A DNA stretch of 32,297 nt from contig NZ_JAGSOI010000027.1 of assembly GCF_023684405.1 (NCBI RefSeq), forward strand, positions 1 through 32,297. The letters are read 5' to 3'. This stretch comes from Methanococcoides seepicolus (GTDB taxonomy: Archaea; Halobacteriota; Methanosarcinia; Methanosarcinales; Methanosarcinaceae). Made by a program: the position numbers and the translations under genes. Positions 1,966-9,025 of the stretch are shown here, piece by piece. The notes below the pieces were generated by a model. The model had not been told where the DNA came from. It did not search any database and saw nothing but the letters and a program-made list of their open reading frames with translations. The first letter of the stretch is position 1; each line of letters opens with the position of its first letter.

Positions 1966-3237
1966 TCAAAACATTTTAACACCCATTTCTTTCAATGATC
2001 CTTCCATGTTATAGATCTCATCCATATTCTCGGCTAAGAGTATAACAGCAAAATCACCGGACAACGGCAATGTATCGCAGCTAAAAGGAAATACGGAATT
2101 TAATTTTTCACCGTTATAAAGTACTGGTTCAATACGTTCAGTGAGTTCAAGAAATGAACATGCTGCGGTCTTGATTTTTATAAATTTCCAATATGGAATG
2201 GGAGATATCAATTCTTCAATATTATCTACGATCATGCTCACATAGGAGGAACCATTAAAACGAGCATTATTTTCAACCGGAAATATACCTTCATCCGATA
2301 CGATATAATCGATACCGACTACACCCCGATATCCGAATTCAGCCATATTAGTTACAATTTTCGCAGATGTTTTTGCAATGTAATTTGAAATTTCTGGGGA
2401 GGGATCTTCTCCTTTGAGTGTACCAATGTGTACCATACCTCTTTCGCACATTTGATCCCGCATACCAAGAGAGTTTATATTACCTTCTCTGCTGATCACC
2501 CACTGATCATTTGGAGAAGATGAGACATTCAGAAAAGGCTCAATGATAACAGATCTTTCACCGCTAACTGCAATTTCATGATATATTTCAGAAATATCAT
2601 TGCCTTTAGTTTTGTACAACGACATATCGGCTTCACCCAAAGTTCCGCGAATAATAACAGTTTCGCAGGTTGACAGATATCCGTTTATGATGTTTTTCAG
2701 ATCTGTACAATTTTCATTGTCTTCAGGATGCATTTCAAATGAAGTGCCTTCGACAACAGCTATGTCCAATTCTTGACATACGGTCTTAAAAACGAACTTA
2801 TCATTATATTTTAGTGTTGCAGTTTCAGTTGCTCCAAAAAGTTCAGCGCCAAGAACTTTTGCAGCTTCAGTTTCCATACTCCCTGAAAACCATGGTACAT
2901 ATACAGGTTTTTTCCCGCTCTGCCTGATATATCTTATAACTGGTTCAGGATCATTAACGATGAGTTCCGAGAGCGTCATCTCTTTTGAATGAGCATTATA
3001 TTCTACGATATGATCCGACCCCAGACCATGGGAACGCAGCCATTTATGATACTCGGAGTCCAGCTTTCCGCGTAGAACTACCACATCATCAGGACGTGCT
3101 ATCGGAAGCGCTCTATCGCATTTTGAATTAACGGATGCATCACGGCGCGGGAACTGTGAAAAACGATCTGCTCCGTAAATTATTAGCTCATTGTTATTTT
3201 TTGAGATGCATTTTCTGAGTGATTGATATTTATACAT
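1966..3237 (-). CDS. ATP-grasp carboxylate-amine ligase-like protein
   Basis: A 423-residue soluble protein whose C-terminal half carries ATP-grasp features. These are GVVGIDYIV at residues 306-313 and the metal/phosphate motif ENNARFNGSS at 322-331, which corresponds to the E-x-N-x-R-x-G/N pattern of the superfamily. The N-terminal ~120 residues look like a pre-ATP-grasp Rossmann-type domain. ATP-grasp enzymes join a carboxylate to an amine or other nucleophile through an acyl phosphate. It is the last gene of the operon, 50 bases after the phosphatidyltransferase. It may therefore aminoacylate or otherwise conjugate the amine of the headgroup made by its neighbours; this is inference. The acceptor is not visible in the sequence. 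Start ATG 3237; no strong ribosome binding site seen. Confidence 0.8.
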   Translation of the reverse strand: MYKYQSLRKCISKNNNELIIYGADRFSQFPRRDASVNSKCDRALPIARPDDVVVLRGKLDSEYHKWLRSHGLGSDHIVEYNAHSKEMTLSELIVNDPEPVIRYIRQSGKKPVYVPWFSGSMETEAAKVLGAELFGATETATLKYNDKFVFKTVCQELDIAVVEGTSFEMHPEDNENCTDLKNIINGYLSTCETVIIRGTLGEADMSLYKTKGNDISEIYHEIAVSGERSVIIEPFLNVSSSPNDQWVISREGNINSLGMRDQMCERGMVHIGTLKGEDPSPEISNYIAKTSAKIVTNMAEFGYRGVVGIDYIVSDEGIFPVENNARFNGSSYVSMIVDNIEELISPIPYWKFIKIKTAACSFLELTERIEPVLYNGEKLNSVFPFSCDTLPLSGDFAVILLAENMDEIYNMEGSLKEMGVKMF

Positions 3238-3287
3238 TAATTATTCCATTTTTTAGATAAGTACTTTCCATTTTATTGTTACTTGCT

Positions 3288-3929
3288 TCACAGCATCCAG
3301 CTATAGATGACTGTTAACACCAAGGAATAAACCAAGAGAACATAAAACCAACTGCCGGAAAACTTGGGCGTTCGGATTGGTGCTATATTAAAGACAGCCA
3401 TAATCATAAACAGTGCATATAGAACGACTAAAAAGGTCGGCTGGCTGAAAAAACTGTTAAACAGGAAGACAAAAGCAAGAATTAGGACATTGTTGTCAAG
3501 TGCCAATCCCATGTATGTCGAATCATCGATCAGGCCGAAAACATTGAAATAACTCAACCGTATTGCACTGACGGCGACGATCACGAACGCTCCGGGTAGG
3601 AACCATGGACTGAATTCTCCATAGCTCAAGAGAAATACAGCGGGGCAAATGCCAAAACTTACAATATCTATCAATGAATCAAGCTGTCCCCCGAAAGCTC
3701 GATATTCATCAGTTCGCCCCTTCATCCGGCGAGCAATGAGTCCGTCACCCCAGTCAAAAACAACTGCCCAGATCATTCCAATTATAGCAATTGGTAAATT
3801 GCCTAATATGGCATAGTATATACTAAGGACTGCACACAATAGTCCTGCAAGCGAACAGATATTTGGAAGGTCTCGGGCGAAAGCAAGCATTCCTGTCTGA
3901 TGTGATCGTTGATTCTCTGGACCGTTCAT
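3288..3929 (-). CDS. CDP-alcohol phosphatidyltransferase (membrane)
   Basis: A 213-residue integral membrane protein with about six hydrophobic segments. The complete family signature is present at residues 59-88: D59, D62-G63, A66-R67, G80, D84 and D88. All the Mg2+-binding acidic residues are therefore intact. The family transfers a phospho-alcohol from a CDP-linked donor to a lipid or alcohol acceptor. Close relatives include archaetidylserine and archaetidylinositol-phosphate synthases. The start ATG overlaps the aminotransferase stop (TGATG), so expression is coupled. With a cytidylyltransferase two genes upstream, the CDP-linked partner is probably made in the same operon. The acceptor may be a hydrophilic CDP-alcohol joined to an archaeol lipid, or CDP-archaeol joined to an alcohol; the sequence does not decide. 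Confidence 0.88.
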   Translation of the reverse strand: MNGPENQRSHQTGMLAFARDLPNICSLAGLLCAVLSIYYAILGNLPIAIIGMIWAVVFDWGDGLIARRMKGRTDEYRAFGGQLDSLIDIVSFGICPAVFLLSYGEFSPWFLPGAFVIVAVSAIRLSYFNVFGLIDDSTYMGLALDNNVLILAFVFLFNSFFSQPTFLVVLYALFMIMAVFNIAPIRTPKFSGSWFYVLLVYSLVLTVIYSWML

Positions 3930-5047
3930 CAGGCTACTTCCACATTATTCAAGTCAATGACATCTACCAATGCTTCAACCAATTTGCAATTTTCGGCTTC
4001 AGTACGGCTGGCAATACGAACATAACGGCTAGAGTCAGGTAGAGTCTTGTCCTGGCAGTGTTTTATGTACATGTTATGCTCAATGAACAATCTACGTGTG
4101 AGCTCAGGACCACTCTGTGCGTGATCTGGCAGGCGGCAGAAAATAAAGTTTGCATCGGGTTTGTAGACCGTCATTCCCGGGATAGCACACAGTTTTTTAT
4201 ACAGATTATCCCTGTCGATACGTACCTGCTTGCAGCTTTCGACAAATTCCTGTCTGTAATCGGGCAATATCCGCAGAAACTCTTCGGCAAATCCGTTGAT
4301 ATTCCATATATGTACGCCTTCCCTTACAGATTCAGCAAATGCTAAATTTGCAGTCAGCATATAACCGATCCGGATCCCGCAGATACCATAGGCTTTGCTC
4401 ATGCTTTTAAGGATCGCTATATTTGGATAACGTTCGAGTTCATTCTCCAGGGTTGTCTGTTCCGGGTCATGTACAAAATCCAGGAAGGATTCATCGATGA
4501 TCAACATACAGTCATGGTTTGCAAGTTTTTGTGCAAGAGATATCAGATCGGACTTGGGAACCAGAAGAGATGTTGGATTATTAGGTGTTACCACGACAGC
4601 AACATCTGCTTTGACCCTGATCGCTTCAGCAGCAAACTTGTCCACATCCAGTTGAAAGGATGGAAACTCAAGAGGAAATTCAACTACTCGGTCTGCAGGT
4701 GCTGCATTCGCATATTCATTAAAAGATGGCACTGGAACGATCAACTTGTTGGATATGTGGCCGGAGATGATCTTGATAAGTTCGGCAGCACCATTTCCCA
4801 CAACGATCCTTTCAGCAGGTTGATGGATCACATCCCCTATAAGACCGGCAAGTGCATCCTGTGCAATCGGATAGTTAAGGACAATGTCGTGAATTTGATC
4901 TTTAAGGCTTGTAAAAACTGCCTCTGGCGGGAAATACAGATTGTAAAGATAAGCATGATCAATAAAGTCATGGCGATAGTAACCACCATGCTGTCCGGAA
5001 ATGAATTCGTATTTTTCAGTTTGAGTCTTGTAATTATGTTGCATCAT
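3929..5047 (-). CDS. Class I/II PLP enzyme (histidinol-phosphate aminotransferase / CobD-like)
   Basis: A 372-residue fold-type I PLP enzyme. Visible landmarks are GNGAAELI (84-91), the cofactor loop TPNNPTS (154-160), the Asp pairing with the PLP nitrogen in IIDES (183-187), and Lys218 in SMSKAYGICGIRIGY. A C-terminal Arg (YVRIASR) likely binds a carboxylate. This subgroup includes histidinol-phosphate aminotransferase and CobD L-threonine-O-3-phosphate decarboxylase. It lacks CobD's C-terminal Cys-rich extension and sits far from cobamide or histidine genes. Between a LicC/PntC-like cytidylyltransferase and a CDP-alcohol transferase, a serine- or threonine-phosphate decarboxylase giving phospho-amino-alcohol is an attractive reading; an aminotransferase is the alternative. 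The start is ATGATG at 5047/5044, with a weak AAGGGA upstream. Confidence 0.85.
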   Translation of the reverse strand: MMQHNYKTQTEKYEFISGQHGGYYRHDFIDHAYLYNLYFPPEAVFTSLKDQIHDIVLNYPIAQDALAGLIGDVIHQPAERIVVGNGAAELIKIISGHISNKLIVPVPSFNEYANAAPADRVVEFPLEFPSFQLDVDKFAAEAIRVKADVAVVVTPNNPTSLLVPKSDLISLAQKLANHDCMLIIDESFLDFVHDPEQTTLENELERYPNIAILKSMSKAYGICGIRIGYMLTANLAFAESVREGVHIWNINGFAEEFLRILPDYRQEFVESCKQVRIDRDNLYKKLCAIPGMTVYKPDANFIFCRLPDHAQSGPELTRRLFIEHNMYIKHCQDKTLPDSSRYVRIASRTEAENCKLVEALVDVIDLNNVEVA

Positions 5048-5276
5048 GTATTATTTCCCTTAAATGATTTTGATGTGGCACTTCATTTTTTAAAGTCTTA
5101 ACCTCACTAATTGGCTTTAAATTGAAAGAGTTGGACTGAGGCAATGGCTTTAAACCGGAAAGTGAACGAACGATCCTCCCCTTCACCCCGCATTTTGATT
5201 GTTGGAAAAACGGCCTTGATCTTCCAGAGGTATGCGGTTTGGTGTCGTAAGGAATTATTGTTTCGTATTTGTCCGC
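5034..5276 (-). other. 80-codon open frame after the TAG stop of the cytidylyltransferase
   Basis: Downstream of the TAG at 5279-5277 the same frame stays open for 80 codons to a TAA at 5036-5034, 14 bases inside the aminotransferase gene. It fills the whole 229-base gap in the operon. In an organism that decodes UAG as pyrrolysine this would give a C-terminally extended protein. The extension is rich in Lys, Ser, Pro and Asn, and I recognise no domain in it. It could equally be untranslated spacer. Confidence 0.35.
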
Positions 5277-6026
5277 CTAAAATAGTGTCTCCGCCTTTGC
5301 CAGATCTGCAACTGTATCGATCTCATACCATCTTTTGCTGTCAAAAGAGACTGTTTTAAGAGCGAGACTATCATCAGCCACCATTTCTGCAAATACGGTT
5401 TCATAATAGTCGTTTACTCTGCCAGCTGAAATGTACTGGTCCAGTCTTTCTGTAATACGATGCCATGAAGAGAGCGAAAAACTGTAAATGTTAACAGTCT
5501 TGTATCTGATCTCATCAAGAGCTTCTGCAATCCCGTTATGGAATTTCTCAACATTTTGGGAGCTATTGACTGTGACAGTGGAACCATTCAGCCACGGCTC
5601 CATGCGTGCAATGGCAATTCTATCAGGAGAACACATTTCATCCAGAAGGGATCCGTCAAAAACAAGATCACTTTCAATAAGTAAGAATGGCTCATTAATA
5701 ATATCACGTGCCATCCAGAGTGAATATATGTTATTGGTGGTCGCATAAAGGGGGCTTGTAATAAAATCAATTTCCATGCCGCAAGCCCGCGTTTCTAAAA
5801 AGTCACGAATGCATTTTTCCTGGTATCCTGTGACCACAACAAGACGTTTGAAGCCTTGCTTTTTCAAATTGATGACAAGTCGTTCAAGAATAGACGCCTC
5901 ATGAACCATTGTGAGGCATTTCGGTGTGTCGCGTGTCAGAGGATAAAGACGGCTGCCCTTTCCGGCTGCCAATAATAATGCTGTAGTTATGGTCCTATTA
6001 CCACGATTACTGTGGTCTGAGTTCAT
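5277..6026 (-). CDS. LicC/PntC-like cytidylyltransferase (sugar-nucleotidyltransferase fold)
   Basis: A 249-residue nucleotidyltransferase. The N-terminal signature LLLAAGKGSRLYPLTRDTPK (17-36) has the G-x-G-x-R and PK nucleotide-binding residues. ATTNNIYSLWMARD (95-108), the metal Asp in IESDLVFD (Asp120), a KTVNIYSFS segment and YEIDTVADLAKAE near the C-terminus are typical. They match phosphocholine, phosphoethanolamine and 2-aminoethylphosphonate cytidylyltransferases (LicC, PntC). It would couple CTP to a phospho- or phosphono-amino-alcohol. It is the first gene of the operon, and a TATA box about 30 bases upstream supports the start. Its TAG stop is unique among the intact genes here, and the frame continues for 80 codons. 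In PntC of Treponema a similar domain is fused to an aminotransferase; here the two are separate genes. Confidence 0.87.
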   Translation of the reverse strand: MNSDHSNRGNRTITTALLLAAGKGSRLYPLTRDTPKCLTMVHEASILERLVINLKKQGFKRLVVVTGYQEKCIRDFLETRACGMEIDFITSPLYATTNNIYSLWMARDIINEPFLLIESDLVFDGSLLDEMCSPDRIAIARMEPWLNGSTVTVNSSQNVEKFHNGIAEALDEIRYKTVNIYSFSLSSWHRITERLDQYISAGRVNDYYETVFAEMVADDSLALKTVSFDSKRWYEIDTVADLAKAETLF

Positions 6027-6054: not shown

Positions 6055-6062
6055 TATATAAA
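6055..6062 (-). promoter_or_regulatory. TATA box of the headgroup operon
   Basis: On the minus strand TTTATATA lies about 30 bases upstream of the cytidylyltransferase ATG at 6026. This is the archaeal box A distance for a transcript with almost no leader, consistent with the missing Shine-Dalgarno sequence. Confidence 0.6.
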
Positions 6063-6503: not shown

Positions 6504-7739
6504 TCAGTTATCTCCTCTTATCGGACAGGCACACATTTCAAGCAATGCTTCCTCGCTTGTATGAGAGCCACGGCCTATCAGAATATCGCCTTCCTGAACT
6601 GTTGTTTTGGCACTTGGGCTATATACCCAACGTTCAGCACGTTTTACTGCCATGATATGGATCCCGGTCTCAGTGCCCAGCTTCAGTTCGCGGTATGACT
6701 TTCCAATGATGGGTGAACAGCCTTCGACCCGAAGCTTTGTTATCACTTCATCTGATTCACGCACAGCGATCGTGATGACGGGGTGAAGGTCTATATCTCG
6801 AAGGACCGTATCTGCGATCCCGTAAGCAGCATCGGAAATGGATTCGGATGCATTTGCAAGATGTAGCAGCCCTCTCAGCTCGTTGACATCGGCAACATGT
6901 TTAGCTGTTTCAAGTACCCAGTGCTGGAGGTCGTATTTCATCTCATCCATCTCTCGCTCAAGGGCTTTCACTTCCTCAGCGATATCAGTATTGTCAAAGA
7001 GCAATGCAGAATAAGCAAGTCCTACAGCAAGTTCTGCTGTGTTCTTCATGTCAACAATGATGTCCACCGCTTTATCGAGATCATTCAAGCCCTTCTCATG
7101 TTCAACCCTTCGAGGAACGTACTTGTGTGTAGTAGCAAGTTCAATAAGCAGAGGCACACCTTCATCATGTCCTCTTGCAAAGATCACATCATCAGCACGA
7201 ATACGGGTATCGCGGTGCGGGTCATATACCCAGTCAGTGTGTCTTCGAATAGCTATTACCCACATACCAGTCTCGACCTCAAGCTCAAGGTCCCCAAGTG
7301 TGGAACCCACCATATCGGAATTTTCATTGATCGTAACACGTACAATGGTCTCTTCGGCTTCCCTGAGAGCTAATTTAAGCTCAAGTGGTATTCCCATATC
7401 CATCTCGATTATTTTTGCAATGTCTCCGGCGGCATTTGCAATATTTTCCGCAGAAGCTGCTACCTGAAGGACACCCACCATATCTTCGGCTTCCTCTATC
7501 CTGCGTGTACTCAGCATAGCTGCCATTTTCATGTGATAGTGAAGTGTATCCATCTTCTCCTCAAGATCGATAACTTCTCCTGAAATATCCTCATCGTCAT
7601 AGACCATTGCGGAATATGCAAGATCTACCATCAGTTCGGATGTATCTTTCATTTCGATAAGAAGATCCTTAAGGTTCCTTGGGATGTACCTGATTACTTT
7701 TGGACTCATTTTCTTATGTTCCGTATTATCCTTATTCAT
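6504..7739 (-). CDS. Duplicated PhoU / RCK_C (TrkA-C) domain regulator
   Basis: A 411-residue soluble protein made of two similar halves (about 1-207 and 212-411). Each half has a PhoU-like helical bundle (KDLLIEMKDTSELMVDLAYS in the first, DIIVDMKNTAELAVGLAYS in the second). Each then has a TrkA C-terminal RCK_C domain (GSTLGDLELEVETGMWVIAI; GKSYRELKLGTETGIHIMAV), a small ligand-binding unit common in ion channel and transporter regulators. The two MgtE-like genes lie 108 bases upstream on the same strand, so it probably senses a nucleotide or ion and gates that transporter. The protein is clearly an internal duplication. It has no membrane segment. Start ATG 7739. Confidence 0.85.
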   Translation of the reverse strand: MNKDNTEHKKMSPKVIRYIPRNLKDLLIEMKDTSELMVDLAYSAMVYDDEDISGEVIDLEEKMDTLHYHMKMAAMLSTRRIEEAEDMVGVLQVAASAENIANAAGDIAKIIEMDMGIPLELKLALREAEETIVRVTINENSDMVGSTLGDLELEVETGMWVIAIRRHTDWVYDPHRDTRIRADDVIFARGHDEGVPLLIELATTHKYVPRRVEHEKGLNDLDKAVDIIVDMKNTAELAVGLAYSALLFDNTDIAEEVKALEREMDEMKYDLQHWVLETAKHVADVNELRGLLHLANASESISDAAYGIADTVLRDIDLHPVITIAVRESDEVITKLRVEGCSPIIGKSYRELKLGTETGIHIMAVKRAERWVYSPSAKTTVQEGDILIGRGSHTSEEALLEMCACPIRGDN

Positions 7740-7847
7740 TAAATGTAATTTATTATATATTGTAATTGTTAATGCCTTTAATTATTCTCTTTTAGTTATT
7801 AGTACATATCTTTTATATATTCTTCATTGAAGCTCTCTTTTAGAATT

Positions 7848-8408
7848 TCAGATGACATTAAACAAATATAATGTTGAAAATATGGCTGTTATTCCGACAA
7901 GGTCCCCCAATGTTGCTATCACAGGTATGACCGTATCATCCGGATCAATTCCGAACCTGTGGGATGCAAAAGCAATGCCTATGGTGGCAGAGAAGACCGC
8001 CAGAAGTTCGAGCGTTCCGGAGATCGTACATATCTTAAAAAGCGTAAAAAGTCCCAATGGACTGTTTCCAAACCCGGACATCATCCATGCAATAACGCTC
8101 AATATCACAGATGCGGTGATACCGACAATGAATGCTGCTATCACACTGTTCCTTACAACCGGGTTCTTGTGTATGTGGGTCGTTCCGATACCCATATGGA
8201 AAGCAGATGAAAGTCTTGCACCGAGTATACTTCCGGTGTCACCGCCGATCTTAATGAGCGCAGGTACCAATAGAAGTATGGTCGGGAGGGATATCAGATT
8301 ATCAAGTTCCGAGTTCAGTATCTGACCCGTAACAACCCCAAGCACAGATGTGAAGAAGAGGATCGGCATCCCTCTTGACAGAATTCCGCGAACGGTATAA
8401 TAACTCAT
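7848..8408 (-). CDS. MgtE-type divalent cation transporter domain, second subunit
   Basis: A 186-residue membrane protein that is just one MgtE transmembrane domain, with about five helices. Typical motifs are PALIKIGGDTGSILGARLSSAFHMG and, near the C-terminus, FGIDPDDTVIPVIATLGDLVGI, whose acidic residues line the Mg2+ path in MgtE. The cytosolic N-domain and CBS domains of bacterial MgtE are missing. Its start overlaps the stop of the preceding MgtE-like gene (ATGA, 8405-8408). The pair therefore probably forms a heterodimer equivalent to the two-domain SLC41 arrangement. The PhoU/RCK_C protein downstream may substitute for the missing CBS regulation (inference). Confidence 0.87.
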   Translation of the reverse strand: MSYYTVRGILSRGMPILFFTSVLGVVTGQILNSELDNLISLPTILLLVPALIKIGGDTGSILGARLSSAFHMGIGTTHIHKNPVVRNSVIAAFIVGITASVILSVIAWMMSGFGNSPLGLFTLFKICTISGTLELLAVFSATIGIAFASHRFGIDPDDTVIPVIATLGDLVGITAIFSTLYLFNVI

Positions 8409-9025
8409 AACATCAGCACCACCTTTGCAGAAAGGAACAGCATGAGCATGGATACGATATCTCCGATGGTAGCTATAGAAGGTGTCACAACATTGTCCGG
8501 ATCAAATCCGAACCTGAACATACCAAGAGCAAGGAGTACTGCTATAACAGATAATATAATGCCTGATGAGACTCCAGCAAGAACTGCTATTGAAGTAAGT
8601 GCCAGAATACCTGCACTTTCAAATCCAAGCAGAACTGTCATTGTATGTCCGATAATTCCCAGAGCGATGGACATTATAAGCCCCAATAGCAATGACCCGT
8701 AGATATTGTTTGTAAGTTCCGGATTATTCTCGATCTTTGTTATAAGGCCCATGTGAATCGCACTACCAAGACGTGAACCAAGGGTGCATGATATATTCCC
8801 TCTCATTCCCAAAACCGCAGGTGCGATGACGATCAGACCCGGTATCATTTCCAGTTCATTGGTCATTCCCGCAAAAATAAAACCAGCTACTGCTCCACCG
8901 ATGGTTGCAAGTATCTGGAACGGCAATGCTTCCTTGACTATGGATCGAACACTGGCATAATCTCCCAGATATTCTTCTTCGATCTCGACATCGTCGTCCT
9001 CATCAGCATGGGAACTGTAGGACAT
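8405..9025 (-). CDS. MgtE-type divalent cation transporter domain, first subunit
   Basis: A 206-residue protein with an acidic cytosolic N-terminal tail (about 20 residues rich in Asp and Glu) followed by one five-helix MgtE transmembrane domain. The motifs GMRGNISCTLGSRLGSAIHMG and RFGFDPDNVVTPSIATIGD correspond to the conserved MgtE core. No CBS domains are present. It is the first gene of the three-gene cation module, with a 4-base overlap to its partner. The start ATG at 9025 has no Shine-Dalgarno sequence; AT-rich sequence (TTTTAATACTAAA) about 25 bases upstream may be box A of a nearly leaderless transcript. The transported ion is probably Mg2+. Confidence 0.87.
   Translation of the reverse strand: MSYSSHADEDDDVEIEEEYLGDYASVRSIVKEALPFQILATIGGAVAGFIFAGMTNELEMIPGLIVIAPAVLGMRGNISCTLGSRLGSAIHMGLITKIENNPELTNNIYGSLLLGLIMSIALGIIGHTMTVLLGFESAGILALTSIAVLAGVSSGIILSVIAVLLALGMFRFGFDPDNVVTPSIATIGDIVSMLMLFLSAKVVLML

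Follow-up and report, generated by a model that had tools for sequence, protein, structure and literature searches.

Several described systems resemble parts of the locus analyzed here. In the IPCT/DIPPS system of hyperthermophiles (CTP:inositol-1-phosphate cytidylyltransferase and DIPP synthase), a small polar head group is activated with CTP, and a membrane CDP-alcohol transferase passes it on to an acceptor that is likewise small and polar, which yields a soluble phosphodiester. In PntC-AEPT of Treponema denticola, a cytidylyltransferase is joined to a class V transaminase and acts on 2-aminoethylphosphonate (AEP) derived from PEP mutase, and the amine is bound by Glu104/Glu196 of Tde-PntC (PMC6697681). 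Head-group activation followed by transfer was also proposed for the inositol lipids of Bacteroidetes (PMC9246714), and for archaeal lipids one review describes the CDP-archaeol route alone (PMC9385802). In the phosphatidylserine synthase (PSS) MjPSS, serine is contacted by D62, S63, D66, and F105, and the GLPxxA region at the start of helix 5 contacts CDP-DAG; in other CDP-alcohol enzymes, six helices are enough to bind CDP-DAG (PMC8633023).

The window, a stretch of 32,297 nucleotides from Methanococcoides seepicolus (contig NZ_JAGSOI010000027.1), carries four minus-strand genes at the positions given in an earlier note, and the families named there held in sequence models, profiles, and fold comparison. 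The first gene (5277..6026, 249 aa) encodes a LicC/PntC-like cytidylyltransferase (NTP), the predicted maker of a CDP-aminoalcohol such as CDP-ethanolamine. It is followed by a PLP enzyme of the CobD (threonine-phosphate decarboxylase) type (3929..5047, 372 aa), a predicted phosphoserine (or phosphothreonine) decarboxylase, by a membrane CDP-alcohol phosphotransferase of the PSS type (CDPt; 3288..3929, 213 aa), and by an ATP-grasp enzyme of the amino-acid/peptide-ligase type (1966..3237, 423 aa), which is an optional fourth gene of the module. A candidate operon promoter, the TATA-like TTTATATA (6055..6062, minus strand), was read by eye about 29 bases upstream of the NTP start codon. The tight coupling described earlier holds for PLP and CDPt, which overlap by 1 base, and for the close CDPt and ATP-grasp genes (50 bases), but not for NTP and PLP, which are 229 bases apart.

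In this gap lies what is left of a longer NTP C-terminus, still in frame but preceded by a TAG codon. The 80-codon continuation past the stop (5034..5276, minus strand) is homologous to the C-terminal extension of the NTP protein in other genera, and each of the nine Methanococcoides carriers has the TAG at the identical codon. Since the frame beyond it is interrupted in two of these congeners and pN/pS is 0.47 in the continuation, compared to 0.16 in the gene proper, this weakly constrained segment is probably decaying, which is likelier than a conserved pyrrolysine codon.

The NTP protein belongs to the NTP_transferase family. Its best solved relatives are LicC (1jyk) and PntC (6pd1), and IPCT/DIPPS is its second-best NCBIfam match. 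Its residues E118 and E209, which align with the amine-binding glutamates of PntC, are invariant in 50/50 trio (NTP-PLP-CDPt) sequences and in 20/20 and 22/22 fused sequences with a residue there. The pocket is thus Glu/Glu as in PntC, compared to Asp/Asp in the choline-specific LicC. Homology and pocket residues together make the activation of a phospho-aminoalcohol with CTP a well-supported prediction for this enzyme.

The PLP enzyme is an Aminotran_1_2 protein, for which CobD is the best NCBIfam model (181.5 of 290.55 bits, under the curated cut-off) and HisC the second. In the profile search, the “threonine phosphate decarboxylase-like” 6oux scored 238 bits, a CobD-like chain 199, CobD 160, and clear HisC at most 119, so that CobD and 6oux are its best relatives and the enzyme is nearer to the CobD type than to HisC. 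Lys218 (aligned with the Schiff-base lysine of CobD), Asn36, Lys329, Arg344, and Arg348 are invariant in 37 homologues; CobD differs in having an arginine aligned with position 329. The earlier note would have been overturned if this were the organism's only HisC. That was ruled out by a true HisC, scoring over the cut-off, elsewhere in the genome (G000:C93:16512). Two long CobD-type proteins are also encoded elsewhere in the genome. The enzyme is predicted to be of the phospho-amino-acid-decarboxylase type, a class that sequence does not separate with certainty from transaminases.

CDPt belongs to CDP-OH_P_transf. Its best model is archaetidylserine synthase NF038087 with 92.3 of 240 bits, far under the cut-off, and it also stays under the cut-off of TIGR00473 (70 of 107 bits). 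The catalytic motif D59-W-x-D62-G...G80...D84-S85...D88 is intact as previously claimed, with D59, D62, G63, A66, G80, D84, and D88 present in 48/48 sequences and R67 in 47/48. The serine contacts of MjPSS are kept as D84, S85, and D88 (48/48) and F128 (47/48). The GLPxxA of MjPSS is replaced by D145-N-N147, with D145 and N147 in 48/48, a contrast that is partly by construction, as the ten PSS comparison sequences were chosen for having GLP. We infer the position of Asp145 relative to the substrate from the text of PMC8633023.

The C-terminus of CDPt is short, extending 21–30 residues past the PK motif in 45/45 measurable sequences compared to at least 52 in four canonical PSS with this motif. 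The structural model suggests a single C-terminal helix, where PSS builds its acyl channel from helices 7 and 8. The loss of helix 8 would still be compatible with lipids, because six-helix CDP-alcohol enzymes bind CDP-DAG. Among fold matches, PSS came first and DIPP synthase next. The PSS-specific residues retained are few (S85, F128, and N129), and their neighbors are changed from Ala to Ile at 87 and from Arg104 of MjPSS to Tyr at 127, which leaves room for an acceptor other than serine. Moreover, S63 and the Asp residues of MjPSS sit in the general CDP-alcohol motif region, so that their retention may also fit a different acceptor.

The NTP, PLP, and CDPt genes are one tight unit. Of 101 Methanosarcinaceae genomes sampled, 17 carry them side by side, as do bacteria of about 12 phyla, and the PLP enzyme is mostly 56–82% identical. 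Cultivated carriers include Carboxylicivirga marina and Desulfogranum marinum. The gene order is kept in 47 of 59 homologous loci of bacteria and archaea with differing flanks, which is far above chance, and PLP and CDPt usually overlap or abut. Co-occurrence, which had been proposed as a check, was thus found in dozens of genomes, with the ATP-grasp gene co-occurring with the trio. The label “archaeal” proved too narrow, since the trio is mostly bacterial and its archaeal copies form one clade amid bacterial sequences. Judged from these sequences, the trio is horizontally mobile between many bacterial phyla and one methanogen family. It crosses the lipid divide between bacteria and archaea, its identity implies a fairly recent transfer, and its three enzymes must by themselves yield a useful product from general metabolites.

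Glycan clusters hold fused NTP-PLP proteins near CDP-glycerol-type transferases, LicD, opine dehydrogenases, glycosyltransferases, and flippases, and at one locus (L090) a LicD-type protein stands in place of CDPt. A pair that makes a CDP-aminoalcohol would be expected to have such neighbors. Together with the pocket Glu pair and the CobD-type PLP enzyme, this pairing makes the donor half of the originally suggested pathway well supported at the level of homology.

The ATP-grasp protein is weak by sequence and clear by fold. Its top matches are the amino-acid/peptide ligases 8ynd, BesA (8yi6), 3wvq, and SAOUHSC_02373 (7r8p), with TM-scores of 0.60–0.68. It is present in 13 of 17 trio-bearing genomes of Methanosarcinaceae compared to 0 of 15 lacking the trio, but a finishing step by this enzyme, as first suggested, is not required, its gene being found at 14 of the 59 homologous loci. 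A metallophosphoesterase, 61–71% identical across domains, is a fifth component; it is often unlinked, occurs in 9/17 trio carriers and 0/15 non-carriers, and is absent from the M. seepicolus genome. In the recurrent-neighbor search, only this protein (8 loci) and a methyltransferase family (5 loci) looked related to the module beyond the four genes, and the other groups were response regulators, sigma factors, efflux pumps, and the like.

We propose that the CobD-type enzyme would decarboxylate O-phospho-L-serine, a general metabolite, into phosphoethanolamine, or, as a second choice, phosphothreonine into aminopropanol phosphate. The PntC/LicC-like enzyme would then join phosphoethanolamine with CTP to give CDP-ethanolamine, a step which is well supported. 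The membrane-bound CDPt, whose phosphotransfer chemistry is also supported, would move the phospho-aminoalcohol from CDP to a hydroxyl on a small polar acceptor and release a soluble phosphodiester. The likeliest such acceptor would be L-serine or a closely related compound, bound in the serine pocket that is kept from PSS. The donor of CDPt would have changed from a CDP-lipid to CDP-ethanolamine, much as in DIPP synthase relative to phosphatidylinositol-phosphate synthases. Optionally, the ATP-grasp enzyme may couple the product to an amino acid by an amide bond, and the metallophosphoesterase of many carriers may degrade the phosphodiester. The first two steps plus phosphotransfer by a PSS-type enzyme are probable, while the whole pathway including the small acceptor is put forward tentatively, at somewhat less than even confidence.

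The main rival is a Kennedy-type lipid pathway, a real possibility which we rate as doubtful. Here CDP-ethanolamine or CDP-aminopropanol would donate to the hydroxyl of archaeol or diacylglycerol, and the ATP-grasp enzyme would acylate the amino-phospholipid with an amino acid. CDPt does sit in the membrane and belongs to a family of lipid enzymes, the Bacteroidetes proposal (PMC9246714) combines a cytidylyltransferase with a CDP-alcohol transferase in a head-group-first route, and the LicD-type proteins beside two bacterial copies match best, though far under the cut-off, the diacylglycerol cholinephosphotransferase Mf1. However, an ethanolamine product would duplicate PE/AE. The archaetidylserine synthase gene of M. 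seepicolus adjoins its decarboxylase (PSD) gene away from the trio, and PSD is present in 19/20 other trio-bearing genomes. An archaeal lipid as the acceptor, and a route that takes the place of the usual one, are conjectural. Furthermore, the module has no enzyme for free archaeol or diacylglycerol and yet works on either side of the lipid divide, and CDPt keeps serine contacts and has lost a lipid-channel helix. This indirect evidence leans against a lipid hydroxyl as the acceptor. That CDPt is a plain second archaetidylserine/phosphatidylserine synthase, using CDP-lipid and serine beside genes of an unrelated pathway, is very unlikely: its best model and serine contacts point that way, but the score is low, GLPxxA and helix 8 are missing, it travels with NTP-PLP, and the genome already has the canonical synthase.

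An improbable reading is that the donor decorates a glycan or another polymer of the cell surface in the manner of Lic and Pnt tailoring; the substrate of CDPt would then be a glycan or polyprenyl intermediate bound to the membrane. Fused relatives do lie in polysaccharide clusters, one of them in a Methanosarcinaceae genome, but the trio has no recurrent glycosyltransferase or flippase neighbor and its flanks vary by genome. The phosphonate version, in which AEP is activated and transferred, would fit the PntC-like pocket and the PEP mutase encoded near one fused relative. No PEP mutase was found in the 17 trio-bearing archaeal genomes, for which this alternative of the earlier note is ruled out unless AEP is imported, and the PLP enzyme is of the CobD type rather than a class V transaminase. 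We consider it extremely unlikely.

If the small acceptor is serine, CDPt would be a CDP-ethanolamine:L-serine ethanolaminephosphotransferase (EC 2.7.8.4), an activity from animals. To our knowledge, it is known only from animals and has no assigned gene, so CDPt would be a candidate for it. The serine-phosphoethanolamine phosphodiester would then be a metabolite new to prokaryotes that might serve as an osmolyte, a signal, or a store of phosphorus. More speculatively, and on balance unlikely in this full form, the module would make this soluble phosphodiester or a peptide derivative in a pathway that methanogens and anaerobic marine bacteria exchange. A lipid product would instead mean a head-group-first route in archaea. 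Nothing usable was found in the open-access literature on the combination of NTP, phosphoserine or phosphothreonine decarboxylase, and CDP-alcohol transferase, on 6oux, or on serine-ethanolamine phosphate; since the search covered open papers only, this is weak evidence of novelty.

Compared with the known systems, the module shares with IPCT/DIPPS a membrane CDP-alcohol transferase and the predicted activation of a head group with CTP, and as proposed it would also deliver the head group to a small polar molecule; it would use an aminoalcohol instead of inositol, its transferase belongs to the PSS branch, and its head group would come from a PLP enzyme. With PntC-AEPT, it shares the Glu/Glu amine pocket and the pairing or fusion of a cytidylyltransferase with a PLP enzyme, which is of a different type here. 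CDPt resembles MjPSS in fold, catalytic Asp residues, serine contacts, and Arg101, and differs in its family score, GLPxxA, helix 8, Arg104, and its tie to a cytidylyltransferase. The Bacteroidetes route likewise has a LicC-related NTP transferase and a CDP-alcohol transferase in one cluster, but it works on inositol with a HAD hydrolase and has neither a PLP nor an ATP-grasp enzyme (PMC9246714).

The four ORFs that the earlier note had described on the minus strand at 1966-6026, encoding a LicC/PntC-like cytidylyltransferase (NTP), a CobD-type PLP enzyme (PLP), a phosphatidylserine-synthase-type CDP-alcohol phosphotransferase (CDPt) and an ATP-grasp ligase, were found in place, and the family assignments were upheld for all four proteins. 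The window corresponds to contig 79 in a 2.80-Mb assembly. The PLP and CDPt genes overlap by 1 base, the CDPt to ATP-grasp and NTP to PLP gaps are 50 and 229 bases, and a TATA-like sequence, read by eye, lies ~29 bases upstream of NTP, the first gene of the operon. The closest named relative of the PLP enzyme was from a Methanococcoides MAG (L046, 97% identity), which makes Methanococcoides or a close relative the most probable host. Directly upstream of the trio (NTP-PLP-CDPt) lie genes for a PhoU/TrkA-C protein and for two membrane proteins (6504-9025, minus strand), an arrangement seen in nearly all examined genomes of the window's genus and not in other genera. Two genes at 123-1539, one O-methyltransferase-like and one for a cupin, point at the operon from the opposite strand, and this pair was not kept beside the trio in the relatives examined.

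The NTP gene stops at a TAG that is followed by a homologous in-frame extension of ~80 codons (5034-5279, minus strand). All nine trio carriers of the genus (the window and loci L031-L034, L037, L039, L040, and L012) end at this TAG; in other genera the position is usually a Ser codon. TAG is readable as pyrrolysine in Methanosarcinaceae. Since the extension is weakly constrained and its frame is broken in L031 and L034, decay is likelier than functional readthrough.

A PLP orthologue of at least 85% identity was present in 17 of 101 genomes of the same archaeal family, once as a contig-edge fragment. In the examined archaeal neighborhoods the NTP-PLP-CDPt order was identical in four genera, with flanks varying by genus. 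A scan of one genome per species gave 59 loci whose PLP relative exceeded 40% identity, the distant glycan type set aside. Among these, NTP was present in 55, CDPt in 51, and both in order in 47, several of the gaps falling at contig ends; the co-occurrence that the earlier note had proposed to check was borne out for these three genes. The trio is a unit, and coincidence can be dismissed. Carriers were distributed over Thermodesulfobacteriota, Myxococcota, Zixibacteria, Acidobacteriota, Bacteroidota, Pseudomonadota, Gemmatimonadota, Spirochaetota, Chloroflexota, Planctomycetota, Kiritimatiellota, and Actinomycetota, many of them MAGs with possible mis-binning; Carboxylicivirga marina, Saccharicrinis aurantiacus, and Desulfogranum marinum are isolates. 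In the maximum-likelihood PLP tree, the four archaeal sequences formed one group (87/90) inside the trio clade, surrounded by bacterial sequences of mixed phyla, and the six archaeal sequences likewise grouped in a quick CDPt tree (support 85). The simplest reading is that the trio passed from bacteria into Methanosarcinaceae. A Methanosarcina-labelled MAG carries the whole trio twice in tandem (L047:9022-15344), a candidate duplication or possibly an assembly artefact.

The best solved relatives of NTP were LicC (phosphocholine) and PntC (aminoethylphosphonate). In Tde-PntC, Glu104 and Glu196 contact the amine, and the LicC counterparts are Asp105 and Asp192 (PMC6697681). All 50 trio sequences have Glu at the aligned NTP positions E118 and E209, as do the fused NTP sequences wherever the residue was present; this is indicative of a small primary amine. 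The PLP profile search gave 238 bits for 6oux (threonine phosphate decarboxylase-like), 160 for CobD, and at most 119 for clear HisC entries. In a distant branch NTP and PLP are fused, with the PLP part 31-36% identical; the 55 neighboring proteins in these clusters included CDP-glycerol-type transferases (8), LicD (3), octopine-type dehydrogenases (3), mu-crystallin-type proteins (3), and glycosyltransferases. A LicD-type protein takes the place of CDPt at locus L090 and follows it at L075. The amine pocket, the PLP profile, the fused-cluster neighbors and these LicD-type proteins fit a CDP-aminoalcohol as the product of the pair. Phosphoserine would be the preferred starting substrate, since the module must function in any host. 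PEP mutase was found in none of the 17 archaeal carriers searched, which rules out 2-aminoethylphosphonate there unless it is imported. A 617-aa fused cytidylyltransferase-CobD-type protein, distantly related to the module, lies in a surface-polysaccharide cluster of another Methanosarcinaceae genome (G062, L045:9095-12147), adjoining a CDP-glycerol-type phosphotransferase, an ornithine-cyclodeaminase-like protein, a flippase and glycosyltransferases. In a Deltaproteobacteria MAG (L052:10001-12428), the pair is followed by a class III aminotransferase, without CDPt.

CDPt belonged to the phosphatidylserine-synthase branch by sequence and by fold; the top match of its model (mean pLDDT 90) was the synthase MjPSS, followed by IPCT-DIPPS and PIP synthases. 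MjPSS contacts serine through D62, S63, D66, and F105, its helices 5, 7, and 8 form a channel for the CDP-DAG acyl chains, and CDP-DAG is held in part by the beginning of helix 5 (PMC8633023). Of 48 trio members, 47-48 carry these contact residues at the aligned positions D84, S85, D88, and F128. The C-terminus beyond the PK motif is 21-30 residues, room for one helix, vs. at least 52 in canonical synthases with this motif. At the start of helix 5, GLPxxA is replaced by D145-N-N147 (D145 and N147 each 48/48), the canonical set having been chosen for its GLP. With the serine contacts retained, the C-terminus short and GLPxxA replaced, CDPt seems to have preserved its acceptor side and changed the side for a lipid donor, although the acceptor side also differs (Ile for Ala at 87, and Tyr at 127 for R104) and CDP-DAG binding is known in six-helix relatives (PMC8633023).

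Among Methanosarcinaceae, the gene for the ATP-grasp protein, which the earlier note had made the finishing enzyme, occurred in 13/17 genomes with the trio and 0/15 without it (Fisher p = 7e-6, with no correction for relatedness). It follows the trio in 14 of the 59 loci. Its fold matches (8ynd, BesA, 3wvq, and SAOUHSC_02373) suggest an amino-acid-ligase type. Five bacterial and three archaeal trio loci also carry, a few genes away, a metallophosphoesterase of ~281 aa that is 61-71% identical between bacterial and archaeal copies. It occurred in 9/17 trio-bearing vs. 0/15 trio-lacking archaeal genomes (p = 0.001), often unlinked, and was not found in the genome of the window. This family (L103:11812-12666, L095:13554-14399, L041:12616-13473, and L051:8085-8930) is undescribed, and in the window's genus too it is often unlinked. 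A methyltransferase family recurred in five bacterial loci; methyltransferases within or just behind the trio at L058:8912-9742 and L055:10532-11575 could N-methylate the amino-alcohol.

Gene content and order, distribution, co-occurrence, conserved residues, fold classes, the lack of PEP mutase and the lipid genes of the usual route are direct observations; all substrates and products are inferred. We consider it probable that PLP and NTP convert a phospho-amino acid to a CDP-aminoalcohol that the PSS-type transferase uses. For the acceptor, the archaeal lipid of the earlier note is possible but rather doubtful. It would give a second route to PE/AE, yet an unneeded one: a canonical archaetidylserine synthase adjoins PSD, the decarboxylase of the usual route, in the same genome (C93:24401-25356), and PSD was present in 19/20 other carriers. 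No module gene supplies free diacylglycerol or archaeol. A small-molecule acceptor, to which we give nearly even chances, is favored: serine, for example, can be had in any cell, an ATP-grasp enzyme of the amino-acid-ligase type would fit such an acceptor, and the phosphoesterase would have a substrate. Serine itself is the first candidate, though less likely than not. With a small acceptor, CDPt would release a soluble phosphodiester. The proposed module would then resemble DIPP synthase, in which a membrane enzyme likewise joins a small CDP-donor to a small acceptor and yields a soluble phosphodiester.
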